A DNA stretch of 64,000 bases, from positions 25,592,923 through 25,656,922 of the forward strand of contig CP099847.1 in the NCBI GenBank assembly GCA_030062745.1, read 5' to 3'. The DNA is from Capitulum mitella. Lineage: Eukaryota; Arthropoda; Thecostraca; Pollicipedomorpha; Pollicipedidae. Below the pieces are notes generated by a model that saw nothing but the letters and a program-made list of their open reading frames with translations, searched no databases and was not told the origin of the DNA. Position numbers and translations under genes: made by a program. Shown here one piece after another: positions 8,915-55,698 of this stretch. Within the stretch, counting starts at the first letter, position 1, and the number at the start of each line of letters is the position of its first letter.

Positions 8915-9064
8915 AGAAGCCCCCCTCGGAGGCGACGTTCCGCGGCCAGGAGTACATGACCTACGACCTGACCAAGACGGGCGGTGGCGCCATCGCCAGC
9001 ACCAGCGACAGCCTCTCCATGTTCTTCAAGACCCGCCAGCCCAACGGCCTGCTGTTCTACACAG
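8915..9064 (+). CDS. Nrx-1: Neurexin exon: start of LNS2
   Basis: The exon follows GTTGCAG (phase-1 entry) and ends ACAG before gtgtgt (phase-1 exit). The translation E-KPPSEATFRGQEYMTYDL...SMFFKTRQPNGLLFYTG contains the opening strands of LNS2. The ATF(R/K)G, YDL, FKT and NGLL(F/L)(Y/H)TG motifs are invariant in neurexins. Its 5' boundary corresponds to the position of canonical splice site 1, just after EGF1. It joins the 14216 exon in phase to give YTGDGDDYMTLALK. Immediately downstream the donor sequence runs into a 23-bp minisatellite. Confidence 0.93.
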
Positions 9065-9990
9065 GTGTGTGGTCCTGTGGTACTGAGGTGGGTACTCCGG
9101 TGGTACTGAGGTGTGTGGTCCTCTGGTACTGAGGTGTGTGGTCCTGTGGTATTGAGGTGTGTGGTCCGGTGGTATTGAGGAATGTGGTCTTCTGGTACTG
9201 AGGTGTGTGGTCCTGCGTTACTGAAGCGTGTGGGCCGGTGGTACTAAGGTGTGTGGTCCTATGGTACTGAGGTGTGCGGTCCGGTGCTACTGAGGTGTGT
9301 GGTCCTCTGGTACTCAGGTGTGTGGTCCTCTGGTACTGAGGAATGTGGTCCTCTGGTAATGAGGTGTGTGGTCCTCCGTTACTGAAGTGTGTGATCCGGT
9401 GGTACTGAGGTGTGTGGTCCTCTGGTACTGAGGTGTGTGGTCTTCTGGTACTGAGGTGTGTGGTCCGGTGCTACTGAGGTGTGTGGTCCTCTGGTACTGA
9501 GGTGTGTGGTCCTTTGGTACTGAGGTGTGTGGTCCGGTGGTACTGAGGAATGTGGTCCTCTGGTACTGAGGTGTCTGGTCCTCCGTTACTGAATTGTGTG
9601 GTCCGTTGGTACTAAGGTATGTGGTCCTATGGTACTGAGGTGTGTGATCCTCTGGTACTGAGGTGTGTGGTCCTCTGGTACTCAGGTGTGTGGTCCGGTG
9701 GTACTGAGGAATGTGGTCCTCTGGTACTGAGGTGTCTGGTCCTCCGTTACTGAAGTGTGTGGTCCGGTGGTACTAAGGTGTGTGGCCCTACGGTACTGAG
9801 GAATGTGGTCCTCTGGTACTGAGGTGTGTGGTCCGGTGCTACTGAGGTGTGTGGTCCACTGGTACTGAGGTGTGTGGTCCGGTGCTACTGAGGTGTCTGG
9901 TCCGGTGGTACTGAGGAATGTGGTCCGGTGCTACTGAGGTGTGTGGTCCGGTGCTACTGAGGTGTCTGGTCCTCTGGTACTGAGGTGTGT
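9065..9990. repeat. 23-bp minisatellite grown from the exon donor (about 40 units)
   Basis: The unit is approximately GAGGTGTGTGGTCCTCTGGTACT, starting at the very first intronic base of the upstream exon. Variants CCGGTGGT, CCTCCGTT and GAATGTGG are interspersed. Almost every unit recreates a GAG/GTGTGT donor-like hexamer, so the authentic donor at 9065 is followed by dozens of near copies. Confidence 0.93.
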
Positions 9991-11224
9991 GATCCGGCAA
10001 CACGAGACCGGTGCTGGCCGGGAGAGGCCTCGAACCCGATAGTCATGCCTTGGTGCATAGGCATAGGAACGGGGGGTTCCGTGGACGCCATGGCACCCTC
10101 ACTTTCCGTGAATGCTGAACATTCACCCTATGGCGATCCATGGAAAGGATCGACTCCAAAATTAGTTTTGTTACCCCCACTTTCTGAGACGTTCCTTCTC
10201 GAATGCCTCGGTGTCACCGCAGCTTGAACGTCTGCAGGTCATGAACGTTTGCTCGGAAACGGTCGAAGGGCTGGTCGGAGCGAATTTTTCACTGCAAATG
10301 GGTTACGCAATCGCTGGTAAAACATGACGTAAAGTGTACAGAACAATGTTCTCGTTCCTAAGGATGCGATGGGAAGCAGTAACAAAAACTATTCAGTTTA
10401 AAGCCGTTTTCTTTGCACTGCGACACAAAATGCTGTTTTTGTGTCATGTGTTAACTTCTCTGCATCTGCATTACGTGCAAAATATCTCTCAACCACAACA
10501 TTTTTAAACCACATGTCTAAACATTAAACGGCAAGGTCTCTGCTAGCGTTTTGCATCATATGTCGAGTGTACTTCACCATGCGATCAGTGCGCAGCTCAG
10601 ACTGCATACAGTTCGCGCGGCTCTGGCGTGGCCCTGTCTCTGACCAATGGCTGGCCTCCAGTCAAACGCGATTCAATCAAATTCAATCAAATTCAATCAA
10701 AGGGATCCACTGGCGCGCCGTCTCGAAAGGGCAATCTGAAGTGCATTGTGCGTGCACCGTACTGCACTGTAACGGTGAAGTTTCCCCGCAATTGCCTCTG
10801 CGATCCGATTGCAATCGACTGTCATCACGCAGGCTGGACAATCACGCGAACGTCGTCCGGCACAACGTCTGCGACCCGCTTTCCAATAGTCTCCGCACTA
10901 CGATTCCATCGGACCCCCCCCTCCCCCCTCCCGGCAACTTACACCCGCCGTGGGTGCACCGTGAGCCGAGCGGGCCGCAGCGCCCTCACGTGTCCCACCT
11001 CTGCGCCGTCCTGCCGGGTCGCCGCCCGTGTCGCCGCCGGCCGCGGACGACACTCTCACGGGCCGGCCGGCCGGGGCGGCGGCAGCGGCGGGGAGGAGCC
11101 GGCCGCGCGTGTATTGATTCTGTCGTAATCGGCCGGCTGGGACCGGCTGACCCGCCGGGCCGGGCCGGCCGGGCCGCGCCCGAACCCGGCTGCGCTGGCC
11201 GGCTCTCGCGAGCAAATGGTCAGC

Positions 11225-11790
11225 GTCGGATATGGCGGAAAACAGCGGGGAAAAGAGCTGTCGGATCAGCTAGGTTCAGCGTGTGACAGCGGAGGACTGA
11301 GCTGCGGACACAGTTCCGGACAGCGGAGGACTGAGCCGCCGACGTAACTGCGGACGGCGGAGAACAGCGCTGCGGATAACGAATAACTGAGCTGCACAGC
11401 GAACAGAGGACTGATGATACAGATGAGGATACAGATGTTGACAGCAGAGGACAGAGCCGCTAGCACAGCCGCGGACAGCTGTGGATAGCGGTGGACAGCT
11501 CCAGACAGCTGCGGAAGGCGGCAGACACGGACAGCGACAGCATCGGACGGAAATTCTGTAAGCACTGCACATTGATTCGGCAACACCAGACGGATATTCG
11601 GACAGCAGTGGACAGATAACTGGACATCATCAGACAAAGATTCGGGCCGGACTCGAGCTGAGGAGTTGAGGCGGCCGGAGCCGAGGCTGGTAGCGGCAGA
11701 GCCGTGGACAGCAGCGGACAAAGCTGCGGACTCGTGAAGCTGCAGACACGCGGACTGACAGGCAGAGCTGATGGACGGATGGAGTGTATA
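11225..11790. repeat. Degenerate CGGACAGC-rich tandem repeat field
   Basis: Many variants of GCTGCGGACAGCGGAGGACTGA recur with irregular spacing. Open minus-strand frames here are Ser/Ala/Cys-rich and repetitive and are rejected as genes. Confidence 0.75.
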
Positions 11791-13250
11791 CATAGCGCGG
11801 ACGCCGGGGAGTTGTAGTGGTTACATGTACCCACAATCCTACAAGCTTGGGATATAAAATGTTGACCCTATTTTTACTTTTTGACTTCTTTTTACCGATA
11901 TAATGCTGTTCCCAGCTTTCCTGTACGCTATGCTTAACACATACAGCCATTCCAATCGTTTTTGATGTCCATATATCCCGCTTTTAGGCGAGTTTGTATT
12001 TCCCACTCAGAAAACCATGGCGGTGCCAATGAGAGCACGCAAACATTTACGACAACGAACTAACGGATGCACCAGCGAGTAGACACACGAGCATGTACAC
12101 GCTGCGTTTCGGAAATAGTGAGCCACCTACAAATTGGTGGAAAAAAGATGACAGACTCAGTCAGACAGCCCGACAGACGGCGCAAACATTCGGACTTAAA
12201 AACGGGAACAGACAGACTGGCAGACGTACAGATAGACGGACAGTCAGATCGGCAGACAGACAGACAGAATATGGTCTACGTTTTACGGGACGACCAACGA
12301 CCGTCGGGATGGAGCAGCTCCCGCTCGCGTGGACATGCCCGGTGCTCCCGGGGGCCGCCCCGGCACGCACGGCCGCCCGAGGTGAGCGCACAGACAGTCG
12401 GGACGCTGACAGAGCGCCGGGCCCGTCAGCCGCCCTCTGTGGGAAGATGATCGATATGGAAGCGCCGGCGGCCAAGCCCCCAGCGCCCGGGGAGATCCTC
12501 CGCGTTCGAAAGATAGTCTGCAGACGGCAGGGAGCCGCAGAAGGTCCCTCGGATGCATCTAACACTCGTAAAATCCTTCGTCTAAGAGACTGGAAAAACC
12601 GGCATTTTTGACCAAGTATCTGCCATTAGCGCGGACGCCGTGCGCAGTCCTGCGACCGAATACTTCGCGGTCTTTTTGGCGCCTGAGAAAACATGGATCT
12701 GTTATTCAATAATGGAAGCTCATTAGCGAAACAGCATTTTGCTAATGAGCCGGAGAGCGCACAAGAAGGTTCTTCGAATATCGGTGTTCCATTATGAGTG
12801 GCTCGACTTGACCAGACCCAGCCAAGAGGTTTCGAGAGTTCGGACATCTCCAGACACTGGCTAGGATTCGTTAAAAACCATATAGCACTCTTCGTGTTGT
12901 ATCATTTCCCCACTTATTTGCGGAATTTATTGATGACCGTTTCGCGAGTTCTCTCACGAATTACGCATGTTCTTTGCCCCGCGATGTATACTGAAATGCA
13001 TCTATGTTACACCGATTTTTATTGAATTTTATTGAATTGTCGACAGATTAGGACGACACCTCAAATATAGACGCCTAATAATCTATAATTTATTTTTATC
13101 AACGACGCTTGGCTCAGTATTATCTAGCCATGATCCAGAAACAAAGCAAGCTCTTCGGAAACTTGTACATGTTCCAAAGGAATACTTCAAAGCGAAAAGC
13201 CCTGTGATTTTTAAGAAATATTTGATGGAAACAGTCTGTTTCCTGAGTTT

Positions 13251-13254
<4 letters not shown>

Positions 13255-13296
<42 letters not shown>

Positions 13297-13300
13297 TATG
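13255..13300. repeat. (TA)n microsatellite
   Basis: A near-pure TA dinucleotide run of about 45 bp with one C interruption. Confidence 0.95.
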
Positions 13301-14215
13301 GCGGTCTTTGTCCCCTCTTCTGAATCTCAATTATAGATCATCTTATTTGTAAACGTAGAGTATTTCATACGATATCTAAATACGTTTTGTTACATATCAC
13401 ATAAAAGGCTACAGTATTAGATACGGTATGTTAATATTCTTCTTAAACATTCCACTTTTCATGTGATAGGGCGGCGTAATGCTTTTTATGGACTTAAAAT
13501 GCAAGTAAGTTTGGATCAAACATTTTCCATCAGTAGATAATTCTTTTCTCTAAGAATGTTGTACGTTTATTTAAGAGTTAACTATGGATTTCATGTTCAT
13601 TTAGCGACTACGGAAAAGATGTTTGCGCCTCTCACGCTTTGTTTTGCTTTGTTTTTTAATTGCTCAGAAATCACAGCAAACAATATCATGGGTGTGCTTG
13701 AACTTAAACTTACAGACCCCGAGGATAAAATACGGAATCAAACTGATCAGTTCCTTTGTTTAGTTTCAGTGTGAAATGCAACAGAAGTATGCATAAACTG
13801 AAGTGTTTAAAAGTTTCATTTAAAATCTGAAAGTAATGCGTCAGGCAATGCTCTTCATGCACCACGCAAGGCGTCTTGTTCACAGAAAAGGACCCAGTAA
13901 ATGCCGCACTCATAACCATGCGAGTTTAACATCCACGACTCTTTCGATTTTCCGAAGTTGCGCAGCAAAGAGACAAAAAATTATTTCGAAGACGTCCGCG
14001 AACAATTTGGTTGCATTTAGATGCGCACGTGGCGTGTTCTTGTAAACATCTATTGGACTGGAGGCTCATTCTTCTTCCCTAGACGGAGACGTGCAATGCT
14101 ATTAAAATAACCCCACTTTGATCTGCTGAACTCGTAAAAGACGAGCCTGAGTGTTTGATCTAGCCTGAACTCGTTTCGCTTAATCGAACGCCTCACGCCG
14201 TGATGCACGTTTCAG

Positions 14216-14304
14216 GGGACGGGGACGACTATATGACGCTGGCGCTGAAGGACGGCTGGATCAGTCTGGCCGTCAGCCTGGGCAGTGGAGCTCTGCGATC
14301 TCAG
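14216..14304 (+). CDS. Nrx-1: Neurexin exon: LNS2 strands, DYMTLALKDGWISL
   Basis: Acceptor TTTCAG ends at 14215 and donor CAG/gtgaga begins at 14305. The exon is 89 nt, entering in phase 1 and leaving in phase 0. It encodes GDGDDYMTLALKDG and SLAVSLGSGALRSQ, matching the LNS2 segment around the Ca-binding rim (vertebrate DYVNLALKNG...NLGSGAF). The last 33 nt of this exon plus 30 nt of intron form a 63-bp unit that is tandemly repeated downstream. Confidence 0.92.
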
Positions 14305-14445
14305 GTGAGAGGTGACGCGTCTCTTCAGCGTGACGTCAGCCCGGACAGGGCAGCTGGGCGGTCCAAGGCGAGAGGCGATGTATCACTTCAGCCTGGCACT
14401 CTGCCGGGAACAGCGACACTGCGGTCTGAGGCGAGAGTCAGGCGG
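14272..14445. repeat. 63-bp tandem repeat spanning exon end and donor
   Basis: Units begin at 14272, 14335 and (partial) 14398. Each contains the copy of GTCAGCCTGGGCAGTGG-like exon sequence followed at the same offset by the donor (GTGAGAGG at 14305, then GCGAGAGG at 14368 and GCGAGAGT at 14431). The copied donors have become GC, so only the first is a canonical GT donor. Confidence 0.85.
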
Positions 14446-17026
14446 TTATGTTTGCTCTGCGCTGTAGCCGGTATATAAAGTGCGCGCATAGGTCTGGTGA
14501 TTCTGGGGTCAGTTTCAATGAACCGAATTCGTCCGACGCCGAAATCGTGCGCTCTAAACGCCAGTCATTCATAGACGACGGGAACGGGTGGCTTCGGAGG
14601 CAGCTGTTTACATATATTCGGAAATCTGGCATCAGTCCCGTGTCGTTGCACGGAAAGAACGGCATTTTTCCTGCAGCGACCCTGGAAACTTCTTTTCCTT
14701 TCATCACAGCAGTCCATCGTTGCAGTTGTTTTACCTTTTCCAGCTTTTCGCCTGAGGCTTTCGTTCAGTCGCAGCCTTTTCTGGACTGCCAAAACAATTT
14801 GCAGATTTAAAAGTGAGCTTGGCGTTTCTTAAGCCCAGGCTCTTTCAGCTGCTGCCACAAAAAGTAAACTTCCTGTGTCTCTGGCGTCTGGGGTGCGACG
14901 CTGCGGCTTTGGCGGTCTTTGGCGAAAGACAGGCAATAAAGGGCAACTCAATTAAAGCCCACGAACGAGAGGAGGTTGTTCCCCGTCCATCATCTTCAGA
15001 GAGACGCGGCGACGGCGCTTTTTGGAGCTCTGTGGTATTCTCTTCATATTACCTTGAGACACCAGTTTGATTATCTTGACGGGAATCTTTATATTCTTTA
15101 TATTATCTTGACTATCTATCTTCATTCTTATGACTAATCTATCTTTATATTATCTTGACACACCAGTACTGGCATCAATATTTTGGTGTCCTTTACCACA
15201 CGGAAAAAGTAGCTGCCAATTCTCCGGCGTGATCTCCAAGAGGTCCGATCCAGGACGCCATGGTAACGTGTTCGGCTTGCTTGGCGCACTTCCGTAGAGC
15301 GGGCCTTTTAGCGTCGACCCGAGCTTGAAAACGAGACCACTCATTCGCCGCTGTGGGGGTGACGTCCATGCATAACAAGACAGTTCCGTCGCACACCGGA
15401 ACATCTCAAAAGCCTTCAGCACGCCGGCGCCGCCCGGCGTTCTGAAACCTCGTCCGACGCCGCGGGCGGCGGGACGCTTCGTTGACGCGTCATCAGACGA
15501 ACCAATCTGGCAGCGCGGCGTCCGCTGCGACGACTCGCGACAGCTCATCTTCTCAACGGGGCGGCGCTGCGGTGCGCGGCGCGCCTTCAAGGCCGGCCGG
15601 CCTCCGTCGCCGCTGACGCTCGCCGCGAGCGTCGGTCGCGACGCCAGGATAAACACGCGTGTGCGTCGTCGGCCGGTTTTATGATGAACCGTCGGACCGA
15701 AGCGGCTCCGCGACCGACGGCGGGGTTTTCGTCGGTTTCGACGCGCCGGGAGGCGGGGGCACAGGGAGTCCTCAGGTGGGTCGGCTCGGCGGCCAACGGA
15801 TGCAAGAGCCCGGCCGGCAGTCTGCGACCCGCAGAAATGACCCAGCCAGACTAGTTGGCTTGAGACCGCACGTCGAATGAAAAATGAGAGGCCGAGTCGG
15901 GACTAGCGGGTGAGGTGCTCAAAACAGACTCGATGTTACACGAGCTCATATGATGGAGGCTTATGATGCCGATTTTATAAGGAATGTGCATTTTTTACAT
16001 CGTTATTTTCTATGCCTCACAGCTGCACCACATTGTCACATAATTCTTCTCTCTTGTTCCGAGCGGTCAGGCAATCAAGTACTCAGAAGATTAGCACTCC
16101 GGAGACATTTGCCGGAAATGGGTGACAATGTTGGCAATAACTCTCCCATTTACGAATCGCCATTTTTGACTGAGTATCCGTTATGCATAAGAAAATACAG
16201 CAAGGACGGGCTTCTGAACCTCTCGATTCCTCCAGCTTACTTGCATGAGATCAAAATCGTGCGGACCGGGCATATGACAACATTGCGGAGCCTTCTCGAC
16301 GAGAGCCATAACGGCCTGACGCCTGAGGCGAATGCAGCCGTGCTGCTTGGCACGCCACCGCGAAAGCCCCTCCGAAGCCCGCCTGACCGTCGGCGCGGCT
16401 GGCGCCGGGGCCCGGCTTCAGAGCGGCCGCCGACGGATTGCAGCGTTGCCGTCGTGTCCCGTGCACCGCTGCCGGTCGATGATCGACGGCCGACGTGCGG
16501 CCGATGTTCGGCGGCCGGCGCCAGCGCGACTCTGGCTCGAGCCCAGCCGCGCGCCGCCGGGCCGACGGACGGCGGAGGTGTGCCCGGCCGTCTTCTCCAA
16601 CCTGTCGCCGATCGACCGGCGGCGCCGGCCGCGCGCCGACGATAGGCGGCTTCGGCGCTCGATAGCGCGCGCGCCAGGCTTGTTTTCAATTTGGACGGCT
16701 CGATCGTGTTCTCCGCCCTCGGATGATTGCGCGGCCGGATTACACCGCGCTGCCGCCGTCCGCCGTCTGGGCGAGAGGGAGGGGCAAGAGGACTCCGGGC
16801 GTCCAGTGCGTGTGCTGCGGAGGTCTGCCGACTAGCAACGCAGCCAGGTGAGGGACAGAGGCGGCAGACGTTTCTTCCCCAGGACTATTCCTGCCATTAT
16901 TTAACGTAAAGTGAACTTTGATGGTCAGACGATTGGCATTGTTTATACATTTTTCAGGCCCTTGCCCATCGTTTCCGACCTTCCCCGCCGCACCGCTGCC
17001 GCTGACGCGCCCCTCTGCTGCCGCAG
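14446..17026 (+). other. Intron, LNS2
   Basis: No exon was recognised. A CpG-rich segment covers about 15410-15760 and another covers 16330-16680. Long open frames on both strands there reflect high GC (few stop codons) and have Arg/Ala/Pro-biased composition without domains. Confidence 0.65.
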
Positions 17027-17099
17027 GTGCGGCCTCCGCGGTGTCCGGTTCGACGACGACCAGTGGCACAAGGTGACCGTCGACCGCAGGGTGAAGGAG
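17027..17099 (+). CDS. Nrx-1: Neurexin exon: LNS2, RFDDDQWHKVTVDRRVKE (phase anomaly)
   Basis: The exon follows CTGCCGCAG and ends GAG before gtgggt. The frame GVRFDDDQWHKVTVDRRVKE is clearly LNS2 (the DxxWH motif) and leaves in phase 0, exactly at splice site 2. However, the first bases read VRPP in the phase supplied by the preceding exon (phase 0), while RFDDDQWH needs entry one base off. In fly Nrx-1 the equivalent stretch is, from memory, VRPQSVRFDDHQWH. The two halves therefore both look right but in different frames, suggesting one missing base near 17038-17042 in the assembly. Confidence 0.85.
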
Positions 17100-18839
17100 G
17101 TGGGTACAGCACGCGGCCGCAGCGGCTCCCGCTCGGCGCACCAGGAGACGCATGCGTGTGATGAGCCGCTGGCCGAGCTTGTGTGTCATACCAGCGTGGA
17201 GACCACATTGCTGCTTAACCGTATTCTAAACCACATTGTTCCTTAACAAAGCGATTCCATGGGGAACCCAAAAAGACTAACGCAAAGTCGTCGCCGCGGT
17301 TAAGACGTTTCCTCGCGACATCGTCTGCGCTTTTTCCAAAAGCGCGTTTTTCTGATCCGAAGCAGAACGCAGCCCCTCCACGGAGTCAGAGCAGAGCTCT
17401 GCCGTGACGCCTGGCCCTGCTGCCGGGAGCGAGCCGGCCGAACTGCCGCCAACTGCACTGTCAGTTCGGCCGCCCCGCGCGGCGCCAGTTCGGCGGGCGG
17501 CGCGCGCCCGCCGCCCGACTGGCGGCCGCCCCCTCGTATATAATGCCTTGTCAAATAAACGGGCCAGGCGTCCTCATACCGCGTCACTAAATCACCTCTT
17601 GAAATATCGGCCCCATTCGCTAGCTGTCGCCACCCCTGAGCCGGCCTATCCGTTGCGACCGCGGTCCCTCTCTCGCCGCTGGCGGCCGCTGGCGGCCACT
17701 GGCCGCCCAGGCGGGCCGCGAGAGCGCCCGGGGCGATCGACCGTGACGGAGGCCGGCCGGCGGCCCTTCGAATGATCCCGGCACGACCGTCTGTAGAGTC
17801 GGCGGAGCTCTCCTATGAGTTACGCCGTGTGTTAACCCGAAGAAAAGAACTCCAGCTCTGGAACTGAGATGCTTCATAGGTACGGTCTTCGTGCCGTGAT
17901 TTGGCAACCTTTCCGGTCTTCTTTTATGTTCCGTATTTTTTCCTCGGATTCTGCGCGGAAATGAGGCTTCGTTGCAATGGATCCGTCCGCACAAAATGCG
18001 CTAAAAGGATTCCCTTGTTCAAATCTGAAATTGAACTGCGATGAAAGCTCGCCCGGCATAGCAACAGGCTCAGCGCCGATGTGATGGCTGTAAATAAAGC
18101 AGTCTTGAAACGCGCTGGCTTGAGCCTCGGTGGCGTGGCTTTGATGCACGCTTGGCCAGCTGAGAGGTTCGTGAAAGGGCACGGAACGCTTGAAGCTCAT
18201 GCTTAATGTGCGGTGTGAACTATATTCTCTTATCCCTGAAGCCTCACAGTCTTCCCACAAAGTCAAGTCATGCATAATTCTGGCTCATGCTCTAAATGGC
18301 TTAAACTTAACGGCAATACGCTGTTGTTCGCATAAAATTATGTTTAAGTAGATGCAACATTTTGCGACAGTTTTAAACATTGACGTGATGAGGGCTTCCA
18401 GGATACTTCCACGATTTTAACGAATATCTGAAGGAATTTAATGAAGGGTGGCTCCCTGAACCCTTTAACAGCGTTTTTCTTAATCTGAGATGTTCACCCA
18501 CTTTGCATACACCAGGTGTCAGCAAGCAAGAACAGATTACTATTTAATACGCGAAATGCTTGCACATGTTATCGAACAAATCATCGTAATGAGCCGAACA
18601 TATTGTCATCAGAATGGCACTTTGTGAACTGTTTGCCCCATCTTGCCCTGTTCACGTTGCCTGTGCAATGATCTTCTGCACTGCTCTTCCCCCACTCGAA
18701 GTAACCGCATGAGCCCGCCGGAGGCAGCACCTGTTTGACCCCCGCGCCTGTCCGCTGTGCCCTCGTGCGCGCGTGCTCCGCCCGTGTGCTGTGCCGGCGT
18801 CCGTCTGACACGTGGGCCTCTTCCCATCACCGGCTGCAG
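17100..18839 (+). other. Intron 5' of SS2 microexon
   Basis: A CpG-rich block lies at about 17390-17770. No other exon or repeat of note was recognised. Confidence 0.6.
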
Positions 18840-18869
18840 CTTGTGGGCTCCGGCCACAGCGTGTGCTAC
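18840..18869 (+). CDS. Nrx-1: Candidate SS2 alternative microexon (10 codons)
   Basis: A 30-nt segment sits between an acceptor (CACCGGCTGCAG) and a strong donor (TAC/gtgagtat) and encodes LVGSGHSVCY. Its flanking exons both use phase 0 and meet precisely at canonical neurexin splice site 2 (RRVKE / VSINVDG). The insert keeps frame and places a Cys near its C-terminal end. From memory, vertebrate SS2 inserts (ending LHCS) and the fly sequence (SFCRL) do the same. Skipping it gives VKE-VSI and inclusion gives VKE-LVGSGHSVCY-VSI. No transcript is available, so the use of this exon is inference. Confidence 0.6.
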
Positions 18870-26187: not shown

Positions 26188-26188
26188 A

Positions 26189-45627: not shown

Positions 45628-45683
<56 letters not shown>

Positions 45684-45845: not shown

Positions 45846-46454
45846 AGCACCTCGAGCCGAACCTGTCGGCGCTGCGCACCAAGTTCCTCCACATCGGCGG
45901 CATGTCGACGTCGTCCAGCGGCGCGTTTGGCGCGCCGAACCTGGTCGGCCACCTGCAGCACTTCTACGTGAACGGGCAGCCCGTGCTGGAGCTGGTGCGC
46001 CAGGGCCACCTGAACGGCACGGGCGGCTCGGCGCGGTTCGGCCGGCAGCGGCCGGCGCCGCTGAAGCCCGTCACCTTCCAGTCGCGCTACTCGTTCGTCG
46101 CGCTCGGCCAGCTGCGCGCCTACTCCTCGGTCAACGTGCACTTCCAGTTCCGCACGCTCGAGCCCACCGGCCTGCTGCTCTACAACGGCGGCAGCGGCCA
46201 GGACTTCCTCGCCGTCGAGCTGGTCAACGGCCACGTGCGCTACGTGTTCGACCTGGGCGATGGCGCCATGCACGTGCGCGACAACCATCACGGCACGCTC
46301 AACGACAACAACTGGCACGCGGTGACGATCGGCAGGTCCGACTCGCACCGGCACCACGCGCCCACGCACATGCTCATGGTGGACGAGCGGACGGTCACCG
46401 TCACCAGCATGGGCCCGAACAAGAACCTCGACCTGCAGGGTCTGCTCTATGTCG
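45846..46454 (+). CDS. Nrx-1: Neurexin large exon: end of LNS4 and most of LNS5
   Basis: A 609-nt exon, the largest of the gene, with acceptor CGCCGGCAG and donor GTCG/gtgagg, phase 1 at both ends. It encodes the end of LNS4 (FLHIGGMS, PNLVGHLQHFYVNGQPVLEL), a linker and then LNS5: PVTFQSRYSFVALGQLRAYS, VHFQFRTLEPTGLLLYNGG, DFLAVELVNGHVRYVFDLGDG, LNDNNWHAVTIGR and NLDLQGLLYVG. The VTF..(R/K)(Y/S)S(Y/F)VAL and (D/E)F(L/I)(A/V)VELV(N/K)G motifs are neurexin LNS5 signatures. Confidence 0.96.
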
Positions 46455-47029
46455 GTGAGGAAACTCGACGACGGTTACGTCTCTCCGGTTTTCACCCTTG
46501 TATAGTTAGCGGCCGTTGAGTTTGGAATGGAGAAACTCCTAAACGTAATGTTAAAGAAGCGTGGTAACCAAGGGCATAACCAGCATTTCTTAAGGGGGAG
46601 AGCTCAGTGTGAAGTGAAATCATACGAAAATCGCCTACCGGGAAGACCATGCGCAATGGTTTTCACAAAGAATGCGGGACTAAGGGGGGGGGGGCGCCAC
46701 CAGGCTGCGTCTGTGGTGGTAACTCCGAAGAAACACTGTTTTGTTTCACCACGTTTCCGTTACGTTAAGTTAAGGCATAGCTATATCACTTATCAGACAT
46801 ACCTTTATCATGACCTAATCGACAGACTAGAGGGACCAATGAGCGAAACGCCCCTAAGCCCCAATAACCAACCAACCAACCAATGAGCGAAAGGAACGTA
46901 AGCCGCAGACTCAGAGCGGTCGGCTGAACACCGCAGCACGGCGTTTTCCGGCCTCAGACCTGGTACCGTTCCCGTTCGACCACCTGCCGGCCGGCGGCTG
47001 ACCGCCGCGACCCGGGCCCGGTGCCGCAG
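46455..47029 (+). other. Short intron, LNS5
   Basis: 575 bp. Contains a probable diverged repeat with an 11-bp poly-G near 46684-46694 and an (ACCA)n stretch near 46868-46883. Confidence 0.6.
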
Positions 47030-47191
47030 GTGGAGTCCCTGACGAGGTGTACGGCCGGCTGCCGGCCGAGGTCAAGTCCCGGTTCGGCTACAAGGGCTGC
47101 CTGGCCAGCCTGCAGCTGGGCGGGGAGGAGACCGCGGACCTGGCGCGGCACCCGGTCATCCCCAGCAGCTCCGTGGTGGCCGGCTGTGTCA
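47030..47191 (+). CDS. Nrx-1: Neurexin exon: end of LNS5, GCLASLQLGG
   Basis: Acceptor GGTGCCGCAG and donor GTCA/gtgagt; phase 1 at both ends. It encodes GGVPDEVYGRLPAEV, then YKGCLASLQLGGEE and PSSSVVAGCVS. The F/Y-(E/Q/K)-GCLAS(L/V) motif and the SSxVVxGC linker match LNS5-EGF3 in other neurexins. The last 32 nt and the donor are included in a 65-bp tandem repeat that runs downstream. Confidence 0.95.
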
Positions 47192-47400
47192 GTGAGTGAT
47201 ATGTCACTCCCACGAGGATGGTGTCCCCGGCAGTTCCGTTGTGGCCGGCTGTGTCGGTGAGTGAGGTGTCACTCCCACGAGGATGGTGTCCCCGGCAGTT
47301 CCGTGGTGGCCGGCCGTGTTGGTGAGTGAGGTTTCACCCCCATGAGAATGGTGTCCCCGGCAGCTCCATGGTGACCGGCTGTGTCCGTGAGTCTGGTGCC
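47160..47400. repeat. 65-bp tandem repeat duplicating exon end and donor (4 copies)
   Basis: GTGAGT occurs at 47192, 47257, 47322 and 47387, exactly 65 bp apart, each preceded by a copy of CAGCTCCGTGGTGGCCGGCT-like exon sequence and GTGTC. Intron part: TCACTCCCACGAGGATGGTG. The authentic donor is the first. Confidence 0.93.
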
Positions 47401-49351
47401 GTTGTCAGGACGATCTCTGTTGGCTCTGTTGACTGGTTTGGCGCGGCGGGGCCCTGCCTGGTATTGTTTGGTTCGCGTGGTGGATAATCGGCTTGTCGGT
47501 CTGGTGACTTTTATAAGTGGTTCCTTTCTGTACTGGTAGATCAATGCGGCCATAAAAAGAAGACACGAAATTCCATTTGGACGTTAGTAATTCAGTGAAG
47601 AACGCGGCAGAGGGTGTTCTTGTGGCATTTTTTGTGGTGCCATAGCGTGTTCAGCCGTTCTCGTGAGTATTTAACCCTAATCCCGGAGGGCTAGCGGTAT
47701 GGCCGATTCCCGGCAGGCGGCGGATATGCGCTCCCTGAGATCTCAAAAACTACTCGTCTGATTTTATCGCAACAAATGGCAATCGATTCGCCATGATGTA
47801 GACTACATTTCTATAGAAATAAATTTTCAAGATTTTGCAAAGGGCGGATATAGGGGGCAAAAAAGTCAAAATGAGAGATATTTTTGGACGTCTTATAACT
47901 CCGTTGTTTATGGACCGATTTTGATGACAATGACATGAATCGAGAGACTATGGATGGGGATTTTACTATGGGTCCATACATTTGAAATTTTGAGAAAATT
48001 CATAGGCGTTCACAGGATTTCAAAAATAGGAGGATTAGTTTTTCAACAACTGAATGAACAAAAAAGGAAAAAGCATTTTTTTGGTTTGTGCTGGTCATGT
48101 TATGCTAAGGAAGTGCAAATCGCATTACAATGTTTGTATAATGTTAGCATAGGCGGTGCCAGGGACATGGAAAAGGGGGAACTGTTATGGTCACGTTCTT
48201 CAGATCAACTTGTGACCTTTGACCTTAAATGACCCCCAGTGACCTTGGAGTCACTTGGGATGATCTCATGTGCATTTAATATTGTCTCTAAAAGTTTTCA
48301 GTCATTTGAATTCATTCTATTTCAAAAATTCCACTCACGACAATTGTGATATAGGGTACGCGCACTGACATTTTAGGTCATAGCTGCGCGACCCGACCTG
48401 ATATCAATCTGAAACTTGATACACAAGTAGAGAGCACCATTCTACGTCAAATACATTCCGGGTTTGGCATTTCAAAAAATAGCGCCGAAATTACTACTAT
48501 GAAATTTTGACTTTGACCTTCATCTGACTTTGTAAAATGACCTCAGATGAATAAAATTATATTTGTACGTTGCCCATCCATTTACCTATACATCCACATA
48601 AAGTTTTATGTTTTATCTTAAAAACGCTAGTTTTGGTAGTCATTTTCCTTTTACCATCAACAGGGCCAAAAATGACCTGAGGTGCCTCCCAAAAACGTTG
48701 CCTGGCTCCGCCCCTGAGCGAAATAGAATTACGAAATTTTGTCGCAGTACGTATAAAAAAGCTAGGAAAAGTGATTAAATTTCGTAAAGCTGCGTCAAAA
48801 GCCTGGAAGTGGCAAGCAAAAAACACGATGGGGCGGATTCAGTCCCCCCGGCCGGGAATAGGGTTAAATAACATATCTACCCGTTCCAAGACACAGAGCA
48901 TTGAACGCCTGATCCTCGGATTAGATCCCAGAGCCCTAAGACGCAACAGACAGCGATAGATGCAGTTCGCCGCTTTGTCTGAAAAAAACGGAAATTTTCG
49001 ACACTGGGATTTTTTCCGTCCGACAACTCCGATACAAGTGGTTTCGCCGAGGTGTTCAAGTCCTACAGCCTCGGACGATATGGCGACTGGCACGTCCCGG
49101 CCACTGCCTCAGGATGTGCATGGGATGAACGCATCAGCATTTTCCCCGGTTGGCGTTCCTCGTATCAGTGTTCTTTCCCTTGGAACACCAGCTTCGTTCC
49201 GCCACCGTCCTGCCCGAGAACATTTATCCGATAAGCGAATCCTCCGCGTAGCCTGCACTCTCCGTCAGTGCGTTCATCTGGCGATGGAAGCACGCGCTCA
49301 GCGGGCGCCCTGCTTGGGGTCATCGGACGGCTTTGACCTGTGTGTCTCCAG
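47401..49351 (+). other. Intron between LNS5 and EGF3
   Basis: Mostly occupied by the second piggyBac-like element (47671-48867). The rest shows nothing recognisable. Confidence 0.6.
47671..48867. mobile_element. piggyBac-like non-autonomous element, copy 2
   Basis: TTAA at 47671-47674 and 48864-48867 flanks termini CCCTAATCCCGG and CCGGGAATAGGG. The interior is collinear with the element at 5859-7069, for example TATAACTCCGTTGTTTATGG, the TGTGACCTTTGACCTTAAAT motif and GGTGCCTCCCAAAAACG. It has scattered substitutions and small indels (1,189 versus 1,211 bp). It has no coding capacity. Confidence 0.78.
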
Positions 49352-49471
49352 GCCCTGATTCGCGCTGCTCGCCTGACTCCTGCAAGAACAACGGCCTCTG
49401 CAAGCAGGACTGGAACTCGTACACCTGCGACTGCAACCTCACCTCGTTCGTCGGCCCGCGCTGCACCGAGG
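49352..49471 (+). CDS. Nrx-1: Neurexin exon: EGF3 domain
   Basis: 120 nt, phase 1 at both ends, acceptor TGTCTCCAG and donor GAGG/gtacgg. It encodes SPDSRCSPDSCKNNGLC, KQDWNSYTCDC and NLTSFVGPRCTE with six cysteines in EGF spacing. The NxGxC.(Q)xW(N/D)(S/A/G)(Y/F)xC(D/E)C motif matches EGF3, which precedes LNS6. Confidence 0.95.
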
Positions 49472-51077
49472 GTACGGCACGATCTCAGGGAGATTGGTTT
49501 GAATTACTGGGGTAACTGCAGGGAACGTATAAAGTGCATTTCGGGACCATATCGGGATGCTAGTTGAAAGCTGTATGTAAGTCCTGATTGGGCTAGTGCC
49601 GGGGAAAGTACTGAAAATGCCGAGAACGTATGGTGATTTGTGATGCATCGTGAATCACCCGTGGAATACTGGAGTGTCTGAGAATAAAGACGTTCGTTGG
49701 GAACACCAGGGAATACGTTGGGAATCGCAGGGCTTGTTCATTAAAGCAACGTTTACAGCATAACGTTTGCACCGAGGATCAGACATGGGTGTGTTGTGGA
49801 CTACATGAGGTTATGGTGGGATCGCTGGGTTTACATTACAGATGCCATGACATTATGCTGGTTAAGACTTGAAAGTATGAAGGGGCGTGCCACGGAAATG
49901 GAATCATGAAGTCTAGGTCGAAAAAGGAGGATGTGTAACGGGAAACACATAATACGTGTAGGGGAGGCAAAAGCACGTCATGTAGCATACGCGATGTCTC
50001 CGGAATGGTGCCGCAAGACGGCGGACCCTGCCAGGAAGTTTTCACGGTTCGACTGTCGAAGCATGAGCAGACTCCGAACTTTCTTCACGAGATTTCGACG
50101 GCTTGCCGCGACCGATGTGCTCACCAGCGTCTGGAGGCGGGTCTATGAACTATGCATGAAGCAGCTGGTATTAAACTCCCGGAAGAAAAGCATTTTCCTG
50201 GTATAGAATCTCGGCAAGCCTGAAGAATTCCCACAAATAGCGCGGACAGGCGGATACAACCTGGTCTCTCAATCATATTTATATTACGTGGTATCTTCCC
50301 TCCCCCAAAATGTCGCTGTGGGTCTAGACATTTGCCCGCGGCTAACAATCCTGTTGGAGCACCGTGTGGACCAGATTTTCTGGAACCTGCCTCTGAGAGC
50401 CTTTTTCGAGTCGTTTCAGCCATCTCGAAAGCGGCAAAAGTCGCCGCTTCCCATCTGGAAGTCGTGACTTACGAGTGCCGTTACGTCTAGCGCGTGGCGT
50501 ATCTGGTTAAAGCCCTAAGTTACGAGTGCCGTCAATTCGAGCGCGTGACATATCTCGCAGAGATGGTAAGTTAGTGGTACTGTTCCTCCACACGCTCACC
50601 GCCCTCCGTTGACTTGGTGATTCCAGGCGACATGGGCTCCACCAAGAGTGAGGGGAATGCGGGGAGGCGTCCCGAATTTCTGCGGAGTTACGATCATAGT
50701 ATCTGCATGCATACAAAGACGCTCATTGCCTACTTTGGTTTTTGGTTCCGTTCCTGCTCATTCCCCCTGTGTGACAGGGAAGAAACCAACACTGTCTCAC
50801 GCGAACGGAATGGTCGCGCAGACCACAGAACGCTAAGTCTTGACCTTGAGTGATGGCGGTTTAAAGACACGTCAGAAGAGCCGACTGATTTGGGGCCAGG
50901 GCAACATTACTCCAGACTATGACCTGCAATGCTTGGTCGGGGTCTGCACGATAGGCAGACTTCATAAAGACCTTGGGCCCATCGCCGTCCATTCCAAATA
51001 ATAAAGTTTTTAGTTGAAACAAAACAACACAAACATTAGCTTTTTATCCTCATCGAAGGCCCTAGAGCTGCTTGAAG
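49472..51077 (+). other. Intron between EGF3 and LNS6 (5' part, possible beta promoter)
   Basis: Relatively ordinary AT-balanced sequence. By position it would contain the promoter for a short beta-type transcript if the exon at 51078 is real. An AATAATAAAG stretch lies near 50997-51006, but no firm core promoter motif can be named. Confidence 0.4.
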
Positions 51078-51153
51078 ATGCTAGAACTTGATGCTGCTAG
51101 AACCCTAGGCTTGCTGATCTGCTTCCTCACACTGTTTCCGATATCGACGTGCA
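51078..51153 (+). CDS. Nrx-1: Candidate beta-neurexin first coding exon (signal peptide)
   Basis: An ATG at 51078 (A at -3, in-frame stop TAG at 51063) opens MLELDAARTLGLLIC, FLTLFPISTC, a plausible signal peptide with a hydrophobic core. It meets a donor (TGCA/gtgagg at 51154) in phase 1. The next gene exon (LNS6, 52027) needs exactly a phase-1 partner, giving ...ISTC-K-STSYEFG. Vertebrate beta-neurexins arise from a promoter in the same intron and also join a short signal exon to LNS6. The product would be signal peptide, LNS6, stalk, TM and tail. The n-region is not basic, a mild weakness. No transcript evidence. Confidence 0.45.
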
Positions 51154-51212
51154 GTGAGGATGCCCTCAAGTCTGCCGCAGGGCTGGAAGTCCTCAGCTGT
51201 TGGTCTGCGGCG

Positions 51213-52026
51213 TTCCTCCCGCCGCTGGATCAGCGGCCTGCCCCAGGTCCGCCCTCACCTCCCGCCGTCCGCTGGATCAGCGACCTGCCCCAGGTCTGCC
51301 CTCACCTCCCGCCGTCCGCTGGATCAGCGACCTGCCCCAGGTCTGCCCTCACCTCCCGCCGTCCGCTGGATCAGCGACTTGCCCCAGGTCCGCCCTCACC
51401 TCCCGCCGTCCGCTGGATCAGCGACCTGCCCCAGGTCCGCCCTCACCTCCCGCCGTCCGCTGGATCAGCGACTTGCCCCAGGTCTGCCCTCACCTCCCGC
51501 CGTCCGCTGGATCAGCGGCCTGCCCCAGGTCTGCCCTCACCTCCCGCCGTCCGCTGGATCAGCGGCCTGCCCCAGGTCTGCCCTCACCTCCCGCCGTCCG
51601 CTGGATCAGCGGCCTGCCCCAGGTCTGCCCTCACCTCCCGCCGTCCGCTGGATCAGCGGCCTGCCCCAGGTCTGCCCTCACCTCCCGCCGTCCGCTGGAT
51701 CAGCGACCTGCCCCAGGTCTGCCCTCACCTCCCGCCGTCCGCTGGATCAGCGACTTGCCCCAGATCCGCCCTCACCTCCCGCCGTCCGCTGGATCAGCGA
51801 CTTGCCCCAGGTCTGCCCTCACCTCCCGCCGTCCGCTGGATCAGCGACTTGCCCCAGATCCGCCCTCACCTCCCGCCGTCCGCTGGATCAGCGACTTGCC
51901 CCAGATCCGCCCTCACCTCCCGCCGTCCGCTGGATCAGCGACCTGCCCCAGGTCCGCCCTCACCTCCCGCCGTCCGCTGGATCAGCGACCTGCCCCAGGT
52001 CCGCCCTCACCTCCCGCCGTCCGCAG
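51213..52026. repeat. 47-bp minisatellite (about 17 units) ending in the LNS6 acceptor
   Basis: The unit contains CTCACCTCCCGCCGTCCGCT, GGATCAGCGACC and TGCCCCAGGTCTGCC. GGATCAG recurs every 47 bp from 51227 to 51979. Units differ by C/T at a few positions (GACCTG/GACTTG/GGCCTG, GTCTGCC/GTCCGCC/ATCCGCC). The last unit diverges after CGCCGTCCGC to become CGCCGTCCGCAG, the authentic acceptor of the exon at 52027. All three + frames stay open across the array. Confidence 0.95.
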
Positions 52027-52205
52027 AGTCCACCAGCTACGAGTTCGGCGCCGGAGGGGGCCAGATCGACTACGAGTACGCGCCGGACCGGAGGCCGGAC
52101 AGGCGCGAGGACCGCATCGCCGTCGGCTTCAGCACCACCAAGCCGGACGGCACCCTGCTGCGCATCGACTCCGATACGCACGACGACTACCTCGAGATCA
52201 AGCTG
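52027..52205 (+). CDS. Nrx-1: Neurexin exon: start of LNS6
   Basis: Acceptor GTCCGCAG and donor CTG/gtcagt; phase 1 in, phase 0 out. It encodes ESTSYEFGAGGGQIDYEY, DRIAVGFSTTKPDGTLLRI and DDYLEIKL. YxF(G/S)xGGGQI.Y and R(I/L)A(V/I)GFST mark LNS6, the domain that binds neuroligin and cerebellin-type ligands in vertebrates. It is also the first exon shared with any beta isoform. Confidence 0.95.
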
Positions 52206-52737
52206 GTCAGTGGCGAGGTGGTCAGGGTCGGCCAGGGGTCGGACAGTGAGTGGCCAGGCGGTCAGCGGTCATCTGATTGGTGGTCAGTAGACAGTCGGTA
52301 GGCGGCCAGCGGTCGGGGGCCAGTCAGTGGCCAGGCGGTCAGAACTCAGTCCGTCTGTTGTCACGCGGTCAACAGCCAGTCTATAAGCGGTCAGTAGCCA
52401 GTCATCAGTCTGGCGGTCATTGGTCAGGCAGTCATTGGTTGCTGCTGAGAATGGTGTGTGTTTGTCACGTCGCGCGGATCAGAGCGGTAGGGTCGCAGAA
52501 TGGAATCGATGCGTTCGGCGCCTTATTCACTAATGCCAAAGGCAGCGAGTTTCATTGTAATGCGGCCAATCGTGCGTGACAAACAGGCGCATTGTTGTGG
52601 GCGAAACGTCAGGCGATTGTGAGTGCTCGGAACACATCCAGAGGATCGTGATGACTTCCTCAGAAAGTCTTGAAAAAATCCAAACCATTTCACTGCGAAC
52701 GTTCCACTAAACTATCGAACCGTCTTCTCTTCCACAG
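52206..52737 (+). repeat. Short intron with degenerate GGTCAGTGGCCAGGC repeats
   Basis: From 52206 to about 52440 variants of GTCAGTGGCCAGGCGGTCAG recur, resembling the donor sequence itself (CTG/GTCAGTGGCGAG). The remaining 300 bp show no feature other than the acceptor TCTTCCACAG. Confidence 0.7.
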
Positions 52738-52909
52738 ATCGACAGCAACGTGTACATGGTGTACGACGTGGGTTCGGACACCTTGTCCGTGTCGGACCTG
52801 GGCGTCCGCGTCGACGACGGCCGGTACCACGTGGTGCGCGTGTTCCGCAACGGCCCCAACTCGACCCTGCAGCTCGACAACCGACCCGTGCAGACCAAGT
52901 ACCCGCGAG
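52738..52909 (+). CDS. Nrx-1: Neurexin exon: LNS6, ending at splice site 4
   Basis: Phase 0 in, phase 1 out, donor CGAG/gtgaga. It encodes IDSNVYMVYDVGSDTLSV, VDDGRYHVVRVFRNGPN and STLQLDNRPVQTKYPR. (V/I)(N/D)DGxYHVVRF/V and (A/S)TLQ(V/L)D are LNS6 motifs. The exon ends exactly where canonical splice site 4 lies (vertebrate ERYPA / GRQ), in the same phase. Confidence 0.95.
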
Positions 52910-55468
52910 GTGAGAGGCGCCGCCTTCGGCCGCCATCTCCGCAGCGGAGGTGCCCCTCGCCGCAGCGCCTCGGAGAAAATGGCCTCCGGCTACAACCGCC
53001 GGAATTCTCGCGGATTCCGTCCACGCCGCGCCCTGTAATTGGCCGGAGGCGGAGGATTTGGAATAAGGCGCTTGCGCCGCGTGATAAGACCTGCTCCGAG
53101 CTGGGGCTCAAGTCTCGGTCGTGCCGGTGTTAAAATGTGAACCGCCGGCAGCCCGTCGTCTTTACATTACAATTTAACGACGTTAGGGTGTAATGCAGCA
53201 TGTAGTTAGGAAGGGTGTGCAGTCTTGCTCCGGACTAGGAAAATGTGCATCGTTCGTATAGGAGCACGTGTAAAGTCACAGTGATTCAATGGCAGACAAC
53301 GCACGACAGCTGTTATGTTTAGCGAGAGCTCATAGATTACCTGTGTTCTAGCGCATCGGAGCCAGAAGGGCTTTTGGAAACGTTTCTGTATTTGACGCTG
53401 TCTGTCTGTGGGTAGAATGTACGCTCTTGTTCCACGCATGTAAGATAGACTTCATTCTTTAAGTATCACCAGTCTTTCGAAGTTAGAAGTGACCTCTCGT
53501 GTGAGTTTACCCGTACCCATGCCCCACGCCGTTCCATAATTAGTTTGCCCTGCAAGGCAGTGGGATCAGACAATATCCCGACGCCGGTAACCTCTAAAGG
53601 GCGTCTAAATGGGCAACACCATGATTTACAATCAGTCCCAATCGTCCGACCTTGGTGGTCTGCCCGAGCGAGCCCCCCCCCCTTCCCCCGGCCCCCGTTC
53701 GCGGCCGGTGACCGCCGGCCGCCGAACGGCTGAGCGGGCGGCTCAGCCGTGAGGCGGCTCTGAGCTCTGGCTGGCACTTCCACAGAGCTGCGACCCCCGG
53801 CCAGGAGGCGGCGCCGCTCAGGTGACGTGACGTGACGTGACGTGTGTGTGACGTCATCTCTGACGCAGGCCTCCGCACCAGCACCGCCTTTCCGCCGCAC
53901 CCGCACTGCGCGATCACCGATGCACCCTTTCGATGCACCAGCGAGCACCGCCGCACAGCCGTGTTGGTTTTCCGAGTCGCTGCTCTTCGGTGTGTTCACT
54001 CCTGCACCCATCTGAGCCGTGTCGGTCCTTTGTATCCGGGCCGACAGTACTGGGTGGATCTACAGAATTTCTGTGTTTGGACAGATGCTCTTCATCGTTC
54101 TGTCTTGACCAGCTCTTCCGAAAGCTTTACCGCGACGGAAAACTTCGAAGATGTATGTAATCCAGGATGAGGAGAACCTTGTTTTGCTTTTCTTAGTGTC
54201 GGTGCTCCTGTTACTCTCCTACAGAACTGCAGATGTGGCCGAACATATCGGGAAGGGCCAGTCCACAGGTGGCAGAAATGGTGGGGTCTTCTGGGTGCAC
54301 AAGCGGTGGGATGCATAGATTCTTAAACGCGTGTTTAAGAATTTAAGAAGAACGTTTGAGAAGCGTCCTAAACATCCAAACACTGAACTATTTGCTGCAG
54401 AAACTTTGGGGTACGCGTTTTCCGGGATAAGGCAACAATAATCACATCATAGCACTCGGAAAATGTGTCTATTTTGTTCCACTGGCTAGATTTGTTCCGA
54501 CGACACCGAGCCTAACCATATAAGCCTCAGCCCGTATACTTTTTTATCTGGTGTGGCACCGCGTTACGTATTTTTGTTCCAGGGGAACTTGTCCGGTGTT
54601 CGATGATAGTGACTAGTTAAGATTTTATTAGGGTATGTTTCTGTTGTCTGTAGAATGTCTTGCACGTTAGCAGACAAATGTCGCTGTTAGAAAAAAAACA
54701 GCTGCCAAAAACAAAATCTCGTGAATCACGTAAACGTTTGAGGCCTGGGATCGATAAGATCCCGTCAAAATGGGGGACTGATATCTGTCTACCTGTTTTG
54801 GTATTTTGATCAGGGTACGTAACACCAATAAAAATTATGTTTTGTCATTCCGGTATCATCCATACAACGATATCATATTAGTTCATTTGCATGTTGCGTT
54901 TTAACGGGAATCTCAATCTAATCTTCTGTTTCTTCTCGAGTTGCACAATATTTACGTGCCGAATGAAAATGTTTGCCATTTTTAAGGCCACCTGAATCGC
55001 TGAAATTAAATTATCTGTTATTTATTTCAGTCGCCCAGACCATTCAACTTCGATACAGACCCTTGCGCCTTCCCGTCAAAAAAATGTTTGGGGCAAGGAC
55101 GTTTTTGGGTCGTTTCTTTTTAGTCAACATCCACAGGGTTTATGTCTCATTTTCAGGGAAGTAGAGGTCATGGACCCCTGCCCCATGTTCTTCGGCTTAT
55201 GTTCCAATATCTGTTCTGAAAGCAAGCTTTCCTCCAACTCCATCTCAAACTGAAATCGATTTCCCCTGCCAGGCTGCGTTGACCTTTGCACCCTAAGAGG
55301 GAACACTGTAAACCCCGAATCCTTGTGAAGGTCATCAACATAACCCCCCACCATTACCATTCTCCGCCCCCCCCCCCCCGTCTAATCTCTGTTCCCCTGT
55401 AAAGGTCGTCCGTCTGACCTCTGCTCTCCTCCGAAGGTCATCCGTCTGACCTCTACTCCTCTCCGAAG
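52910..55468 (+). other. Intron at canonical splice site 4
   Basis: Contains GTGAC repeated four times followed by a palindromic TGACGTCA (53849-53856), a C12 run near 55369 and a three-copy acceptor repeat (55390-55475). No convincing phase 1-1 cassette resembling the vertebrate SS4 insert could be found by eye. Confidence 0.55.
53849..53856. promoter_or_regulatory. CRE-like TGACGTCA palindrome
   Basis: A consensus CREB/ATF octamer preceded by a GTGAC pentamer repeat, in the SS4 intron. An 8-mer can occur by chance, so function is speculative. Confidence 0.25.
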
Positions 55469-55475
55469 GTCTCCA
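55390..55475. repeat. 32-bp tandem repeat of the LNS6 acceptor (3 copies)
   Basis: AAGGTC occurs at 55402 and 55434, and AAGGTCTC, the authentic acceptor-exon junction, at 55466. All are 32 bp apart and separated by CCGTCTGACCTCT(G/A)CT(C) polypyrimidine copies. Confidence 0.85.
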
Positions 55476-55698
55476 GCACGACGTGTTCCACTCGCCTTCT
55501 CTGGTGACGGTCGGCGGCGGCCGCAGCCCGTCGCGCCGCTTCGAGGGGCTCGTCTCGGGCGTGGTCGTCAACGGCCACCGCGTGCTCGACCTGGCCGCCG
55601 ACAACAACGAGGACGTCCGGCTGGCCGGCGAGCTGAGGATCCACGCGCTGCCCTCGCGGCTCAAGAAGGAGTACTTCCGGCGCAGTGACGTCCAGGCG
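55469..55698 (+). CDS. Nrx-1: Neurexin exon: end of LNS6
   Basis: Acceptor CTCTCCGAAG and donor GCG/gtgggt; phase 1 in, phase 0 out. It encodes GLQHDVFHSPSLVTVGGG, RRFEGLVSGVVVNGHRVLDL, AADNNEDVRLAGEL and KKEYFRRSDVQA. VxVGG, F(E/A/Q)G.(V/L)SG, NG.(R/K)VL(D/N)(L/M)A and the charged juxtadomain match LNS6 C-termini, but the conserved Cys of other LNS domains is absent, as usual here. Confidence 0.94.

Follow-up and report, generated by a model that had tools for sequence, protein, structure and literature searches.

An alpha-neurexin gene of the thecostracan Capitulum mitella carries minisatellites that span or abut nine of the 39 splice boundaries counted within the window, the 64,000-nucleotide stretch of contig CP099847.1 that was analysed (C9:25592923-25656922, in a genome of 477 Mb and 16 contigs; positions below are those of the window unless a locus is named). 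These arrays probably descend from tandem duplications that arose repeatedly and independently in a genome rich in minisatellites, and that were tolerated because splicing still works from the copy next to the exon. The initial annotation of the stretch had listed arrays at these splice sites, and all nine are present. It had also proposed that a recurrent process generates them. Independent junction duplications do recur in neurexin and are enriched there against several nulls, but a general targeting of splice sites finds no support among held-out boundaries of the same genome (5/160). The kind of arrangement is already known; its density within one gene is the unusual part.

Most of the gene lies inside the window on the plus strand (Table 1), and two further exons, the first exon and the EGF-A exon, are found in the upstream flank. 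The gene is assigned to the alpha-neurexins on several grounds: the stitched protein matches PDB chains of neurexin-1-alpha at 3.2e-251, Pfam identifies laminin-G and EGF domains, and the sequence itself shows a hydrophobic segment and a KEWYV end of the PDZ-binding type. The gene model was built from homology, phase and splice consensus, transcripts forming no part of its basis. Exon phases, likewise read from the sequence, agree across the recognised junctions except between E2 and E3 (14304-17027), which do not fit directly. This misfit leads us to expect a small exon of 3n+2 bases between the two; it was looked for in 14304-17027 and not found, and its borders lie outside the boundary counts.

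Each splice boundary was represented by a 55-mer, with 30 bases from the exon and 25 from the intron. This was aligned locally with the adjoining 800 bp of the intron, and the boundary was called positive at a score of at least 30, with 40 as a stricter threshold. The nine sites score between 30 and 80 (E1 donor 52, E2 donor 35, E6 acceptor 36, E8 donor 31, E9 acceptor 61, E14 donor 80, E16 acceptor 46, E16 donor 30, E18 acceptor 41), against 12-23 at the remaining 26 of the 35 boundaries first tested. Four window sites added later (E12, E19) score 16-20 and three neurexin sites upstream of the window 15-16, and the count for the whole gene is 9/42. The arrays are minisatellites, with head-to-tail units of 10-100 bp; Tandem Repeats Finder picks out four of them itself and a portion of a fifth (52399-52439), and local alignment revealed the others. 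They had been described as lying on the intron side and carrying the splice signal together with the exon edge. This holds at seven of the nine sites, where the match crosses the boundary, but the two arrays flanking E16 only abut their junctions. The exonic bases within the match number 0-11 at E1, 33 at E2, 15 at E6, 7-10 at E8, 17-43 at E9, 33 at E14, none at the E16 acceptor, 0 at the E16 donor and 2 at E18, and at five sites (E2, E6, E8, E9, E14) at least seven coding bases are included.

The units are mostly unrelated to one another, as the initial annotation had said: among 36 unit pairs only three (E8D-E14D, E8D-E16D and E16A-E18A, with D for donor and A for acceptor) lie above all 30 shuffles, and a single shared repeat family is rejected by this comparison. 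The arrays also differ in age, their units ranging from 97% identical to degenerate. Artefacts of assembly or polishing could have made or enlarged such arrays, and the 47-bp array, 97% uniform, could be mis-sized. The other arrays, however, are either 82-88% alike or so degenerate that Tandem Repeats Finder misses them, which is how genuine old repeats would look, and the same anatomy is met at other loci; we regard an artefact as very improbable.

How faithfully the copies keep the splice signal varies from site to site. Arrays whose units hold a copy of the 5' splice site occur at E1, E8 and E14. All three E14 copies keep GTGAGT, two of them with G at -1 in place of the A of the real donor, and both upstream copies at E18 keep AAG/GTC (the slash marks the junction). 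At E1 the GT is kept in 32 of 40 downstream copies and lost in eight, the donor T being among the less conserved columns (33/40). Both downstream copies at E2 read GC, with loss of GT in 2/2. In none of the 17 units before E16 does an AG stand where the real acceptor has it (CCGCTGG vs CCGCAG/AG), although each has another CCCCAG internally. The core of the E8 array, CAGCGGTG or GCGGTGAG, recurs at 35970, 36056, 36088 and 36116. In the E1 array the variant AGGAATG is spread over units 5, 12, 21, 28, 32 and 37, a pattern such as unequal exchange would leave. If an intronic copy were used, a frameshift or stop would follow at six of the nine sites (the E1, E8 and E14 donors and the E6, E9 and E18 acceptors); the E2 frame stays open to 14476 and the E16 acceptor array is open for 964 bp upstream, while the degenerate E16 donor array was left out of this copy-by-copy reckoning.

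These observations bear on selection for decoy sites, another possibility raised in the initial annotation; on this view the copies would be kept by selection as decoys or as alternative splice sites that regulate neurexin isoforms. Neurexins are heavily alternatively spliced, and the E18 acceptor seems to be positioned at vertebrate splice site 4, a point beyond the stretch of alignment examined. The intact signals at E14 and E18 are what such selection would favour. The losses at E1 and E2, the missing AG before E16 and the stops or frameshifts at six sites are not; the inconsistent keeping of the signals speaks against decoy selection, which we reject as the main cause and hold to be quite improbable.

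The excess of copies at neurexin junctions was measured on the same window that suggested the hypothesis, and the tests are to that extent post hoc. When the 35 sites were shifted jointly round the window, none of 3180 shifts reached nine at threshold 30 (mean 2.4). For the same 35 sites, p was 0.0008 against random gene positions and 0.008 against GC-matched ones (3.65 expected). For all 39 sites, with controls taken away from junctions, the expected number was 4.6 (matched for GC), 2.6 (GC and purine), 1.2 (GC and entropy) or 1.4 (four features), with p from 0.03 to <5e-6. At threshold 40, which five sites attain, p ranged from 0.0003 to 0.27, the latter against GC-matched positions (5 vs 3.5), so that for the strong arrays alone the excess over the nulls is less clear. 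Array edges were examined with 23 Tandem Repeats Finder arrays in the gene (units of at least 10 bp, merged by hand): an edge lies within 5 bp of a junction in three (0.24 expected, p = 0.0016) and within 40 bp in four (1.7 expected, p = 0.08), and four overlap or abut a junction (0.90 expected, p = 0.0096).

The excess is not confined to the junction itself. With both sides searched, the rate along neurexin introns is 23% at the junction, 21% at +15, 15% at +30, 18% at +45 and 23% at +60, then 13-18% at 90-120 bp, 9-13% at 160-600 bp and 14-16% at 800-1000 bp. In the other direction, 45-60 bases into the exon, it falls to 3% (1/39 positions at a score of at least 30, none at 35), and among 141 exon-interior positions about eight in the donor-side test and five in the acceptor-side test score at least 30, again none at 35. 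Regardless of junctions, 2.6-7.1% of positions in the window and flanks score at least 30, and about 7.5% of background intron positions in neurexin have local copies. Of the pseudo sites that resemble donors or acceptors and lie outside the nine arrays, 1/21 has copies, against 9/39 of the real sites (p = 0.08). The neurexin excess thus spans roughly the first 60-120 bp, at about twofold over the same introns and more over most matched positions. An exon-side copy held constant by constraint could make old duplications easier to detect and account for up to about a twofold apparent excess.

Held-out genes of the same genome were surveyed with an exon finder trained on neurexin, which recovered 15 of the 20 window exons exactly, overlapped three and missed two; its false calls in the window at a score of at least 20 numbered two on the plus and three on the minus strand. 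Stretches were chosen by laminin-G matches, together with the two flanks (84 kb upstream and 99 kb downstream scanned). The sample comprises 160 boundaries in twelve chosen gene pieces and strands, each belonging to an exon call that scores at least 20 and offering no less than 300 bp for the search; calls elsewhere in the flanks and on other strands were excluded. The pieces include V-ATPase subunit A, a ubiquitin hydrolase, two Caspr-like paralogs, an agrin- or perlecan-like and a cadherin-like gene and others. Pfam supports seven of the nine pieces scanned (L032, L035 and the C1 Caspr-like piece were outside that scan), and gene names beyond the Pfam matches are our assumption.

Five of the 160 boundaries are positive at 30, or 5/142 without the pieces UNK1 and UP1 (18 sites, no positives and no Pfam match). 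The initial annotation had looked to enrichment beyond this one gene, and none appeared at these junctions: the rate is 4.4% of 158 against 10-14% at 30-400 bp inside introns, in a small sample of mostly short introns. The pooled one-sided background away from junctions is 1320/9735 (13.6%). It varies from 0 to 37% between pieces, being at most 3% in half of them, and the low junction rate relative to introns is driven by some repeat-rich pieces. The four pieces with positives exceed their own backgrounds (1/18 vs 3.0%, 1/18 vs 3.7%, 1/8 vs 3.0% and 2/14 vs 0%). Because the exon finder is imperfect some held-out edges are wrong, and these dilute the held-out rate; we judge this dilution too weak to explain 3% against 21%. 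General enrichment at splice sites is not supported in the held-out sample.

The junction-array anatomy is nevertheless not unique to neurexin. The V-ATPase subunit A exon starting CLGNPDREGSVSIV (L023, ~4221) has a 61-bp copy directly before its acceptor, with the same 42 exon-start bases followed in turn by the polypyrimidine-AG, and an older partial copy further upstream; we take this exon boundary to be firm on the understanding that the protein is highly conserved. In the ubiquitin-hydrolase gene, the last 20 exon bases before a donor (minus strand, L017 ~2668) recur in the units of an array that follows it. At an agrin-like donor a single copy, holding one exonic base, lies 209 bp downstream; a cadherin-like acceptor borders directly on a degenerate array. 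The fifth positive (L034, score 38) is a similarity to the start of the preceding exon, with no array. Over the whole flanks, at a score of at least 26, copies were found upstream at 2/26 boundaries, one belonging to a duplicated cuticle-protein exon and the other to a call close to the start of neurexin that is probably no exon, and downstream at 4/69, those of V-ATPase and ubiquitin hydrolase and two whose exon calls lack homology support.

Two further explanations can be weighed on these data. One is a mutational process targeted to splice junctions, in which breaks or slippage at R-loops or paused polymerase seed minisatellites there more often. The excess over every null used at threshold 30, the array edges that hug junctions, the scarcity of copies at pseudo sites and the four held-out pieces above their own background all favour it. 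However, the hypothesis was drawn from the very window in which the excess appears, and at threshold 40 that excess is weak once positions are matched for GC. In neurexin introns, moreover, copies are as frequent at 60 bp as at the junction, and the held-out junctions fall below the interiors of their introns; we consider targeting unlikely. The other is a chance pile-up in a repeat-rich gene with long introns, noticed since many windows were read. It fits the background of copies in neurexin introns, the lack of excess in held-out genes and a GC-matched expectation of up to 4.6, but it leaves the coding bases in five arrays and the failure of any site shift to reach nine unaccounted for, and we give it the same low standing as targeting.

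Intron length is the best lead for why neurexin stands out, though no proof. Long introns appear to carry most cases. In neurexin, copies occur at 8/26 sites at introns of at least 2 kb and 1/16 at shorter ones; in the held-out set, counted over the 140 of 160 sites (three positives) that lie between two called exons, the figures are 1/10 and 2/130. Pooled, this gives 9/36 against 3/146 (p = 3e-5), and for long introns alone neurexin and the held-out genes do not differ (8/26 vs 1/10, p = 0.39). A bolder form of the idea is that junction-seeded minisatellites accumulate selectively at the ends of long introns, where exon-defined splicing would take the exon-proximal copy and so shield junction-spanning duplications from selection, as short, intron-defined introns would not. 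In that case the arrays would preserve a fossil record of duplicated splice sites and would help to lengthen introns. We put this forward tentatively, as a conjecture more doubtful than otherwise.

We propose that the neurexin arrays arose by tolerated duplication. A tandem duplication that covers or touches an exon-intron junction would produce two splice sites. It would survive because splicing from the exon-proximal copy leaves the protein unchanged, and the surplus copies would become free intron sequence, able to expand by slippage or unequal exchange, diverge and decay. The flanks of junctions, G/T-rich after donors and pyrimidine-rich before acceptors, are plausible seeds of slippage. 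The copies, with their positions, differing ages and local excess, are observed; we infer that splicing takes the exon-proximal site, that the copies stem from slippage or gap repair and that they are better tolerated in long introns. Support for tolerance can be summarised as (i) copies at nine of 39 boundaries, few inside exons, and coding bases carried at five sites; (ii) the same anatomy in V-ATPase subunit A and the ubiquitin hydrolase; (iii) copies that are common without junctions, with a rate at +60 bp equal to that at the junction (23%); and (iv) the frameshift or stop that use of an intronic copy would bring at six sites, the higher rate at introns of at least 2 kb and the lack of enrichment at held-out boundaries. 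Several points weigh against this proposal. On simple tolerance alone one would expect neither that array edges fall within 5 bp of junctions nor that copies are commoner there than at matched positions. The difference between neurexin (9/42) and the held-out genes (5/160) is marked (p = 0.0003). The appeal to intron length is confounded with gene, the long class being mostly neurexin; within neurexin the contrast reaches only p = 0.12, and the held-out intron lengths assume no missed exon. Taken together, the neurexin cluster looks more like tolerated duplication than like a special process at splice sites.

If junction-spanning duplications are routinely tolerated, exon edges would be a steady nursery of minisatellites and spare splice sites, with consequences for how introns grow or are gained and for alternative splicing. 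Neurexin and the V-ATPase exon supply concrete cases that can be counted, and the excess at long introns makes a vague idea testable.

Table 1 Coordinates of the neurexin gene, its junction arrays and associated exons in the window.
Feature	Positions	Strand	Remarks
Alpha-neurexin gene body	8915..58666	+	LNS2 to transmembrane segment and C-terminal KEWYV; 20 recognised exons
Exon E1, start of LNS2	8915..9064	+	donor after 9064
23-bp array, 40.6 units	9063..9995	+	starts at last two exon bases and donor (AG/GTGTGTGG)
Exon E2	14216..14304	+	donor after 14304
63-bp unit, 33 exonic nt	14272..14440	+	real junction, one clear copy (14335-14395), weak third copy
50-bp unit x2 across E6 acceptor	31521..31614	+	exon E6 31600-31704; 15 exonic nt in match
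Degenerate array after E8 donor	35875..36123	+	exon E8 35693-35884
About 3 copies of acceptor and exon start, E9	39023..39190	+	real one included; exon E9 39148-39294 (EGF); match holds up to 43 exonic nt
65-bp array, 3.6 copies, across E14 donor	47159..47392	+	33 exonic nt per unit; exon E14 47030-47191
47-bp array, 17 units, 97% matches	51222..52024	+	ends 2 bp before exon E16
Exon E16 (LNS6)	52027..52205	+	
Degenerate array of GGTCAGTGGCCAGGC-like units (by eye), from E16 donor	52206..52440	+	begins at first intron base; score barely attains 30
32-bp array, 2.9 copies	55378..55471	+	each with AAG/GTC acceptor; last copy is the real acceptor of E18 (55469-55698)

Other repeats and reading frames were seen within the neurexin gene. 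A CT-rich array of about 340 bp (45459-45802), outside the nine, ends 43 bp before the E13 acceptor, and a 13-bp array of GTCTCCTACAGCC with about 20 units, each acceptor-like (30229-30491), lies within an intron, over 1 kb away from the nearest recognised exon. A frame that opens at an ATG and has a signal-peptide-like start (MLELDAARTLGLLICFLTLFPISTC) runs through all 17 units of the 47-bp array into LNS6 (51078-52205), an entry point at which, we believe, vertebrate beta-neurexins begin. This could be a beta-like first exon or chance; a coding role for the array in such an exon was set aside, 47 not being a multiple of three and the gain or loss of one unit breaking the frame. A second signal-peptide-like start (MNIWLLILPVSAVGWASC) runs in frame into the stalk and transmembrane exon (58079-58666) and to our mind resembles a gamma-type short neurexin. 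The scan behind both is crude, two of its five plus-strand matches being the transmembrane segment itself.

On the reverse strand of L034 (3600-4364), successive cadherin-like exons 630 bp apart share the acceptor region and first 26 coding bases (YNLNIH / YNESIH), by gene conversion or chance. Eight near-identical exon calls of a cuticle-protein-like family stand in a row on the minus strand of the upstream flank (L006-L009), and for one of them the acceptor and exon start are repeated some 360 bp upstream. A large open frame with reverse-transcriptase-like residues (RSVDDVLLLT; L018, ~C9:25681455-25682120) is perhaps, we assume, a telomerase or element gene. A G-rich array on another chromosome (L005 1480-2030) is 66% like the 23-bp neurexin array; it is a separate array and was dropped as a relative.

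No published genome-wide enrichment of minisatellites at junctions was found in searches of an open-access library. A 1995 paper, to judge by its title, reportedly describes a minisatellite whose units supply splice donors; in this IFI6 case two downstream repeat units are used as splice donors (PMC4526556). The neurexin copies at E1, E8 and E14 could likewise supply donors, and in neurexin nine sites of one gene are involved. Human segmental duplications hold internal tandem repeats with units of ~30 bp at exon-intron boundaries, which can change splicing and make introns (PMC2812944). The neurexin minisatellites share this position, but the human repeats are spread over many recent paralogs with transcript evidence, whereas here many arrays fall in one gene. 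A tandem duplication across an intron-exon boundary is described in potato, along with the AGGT model of intron gain (PMC4974935). As there, the duplication takes in the intron 3' end and exon start at E9, E6, E18 and the V-ATPase exon; the potato duplication created a new intron, whereas the neurexin copies lie in existing ones. Bee neurexin uses twelve alternative splice sites (PMC2570956). In C. elegans, CeRep25B and other minisatellites lie near alternative exons (PMC4039745), intronic as in neurexin and there associated with alternatively spliced regions. The C. elegans case involves one dispersed repeat family, whereas the neurexin units are mostly unrelated and locally derived.

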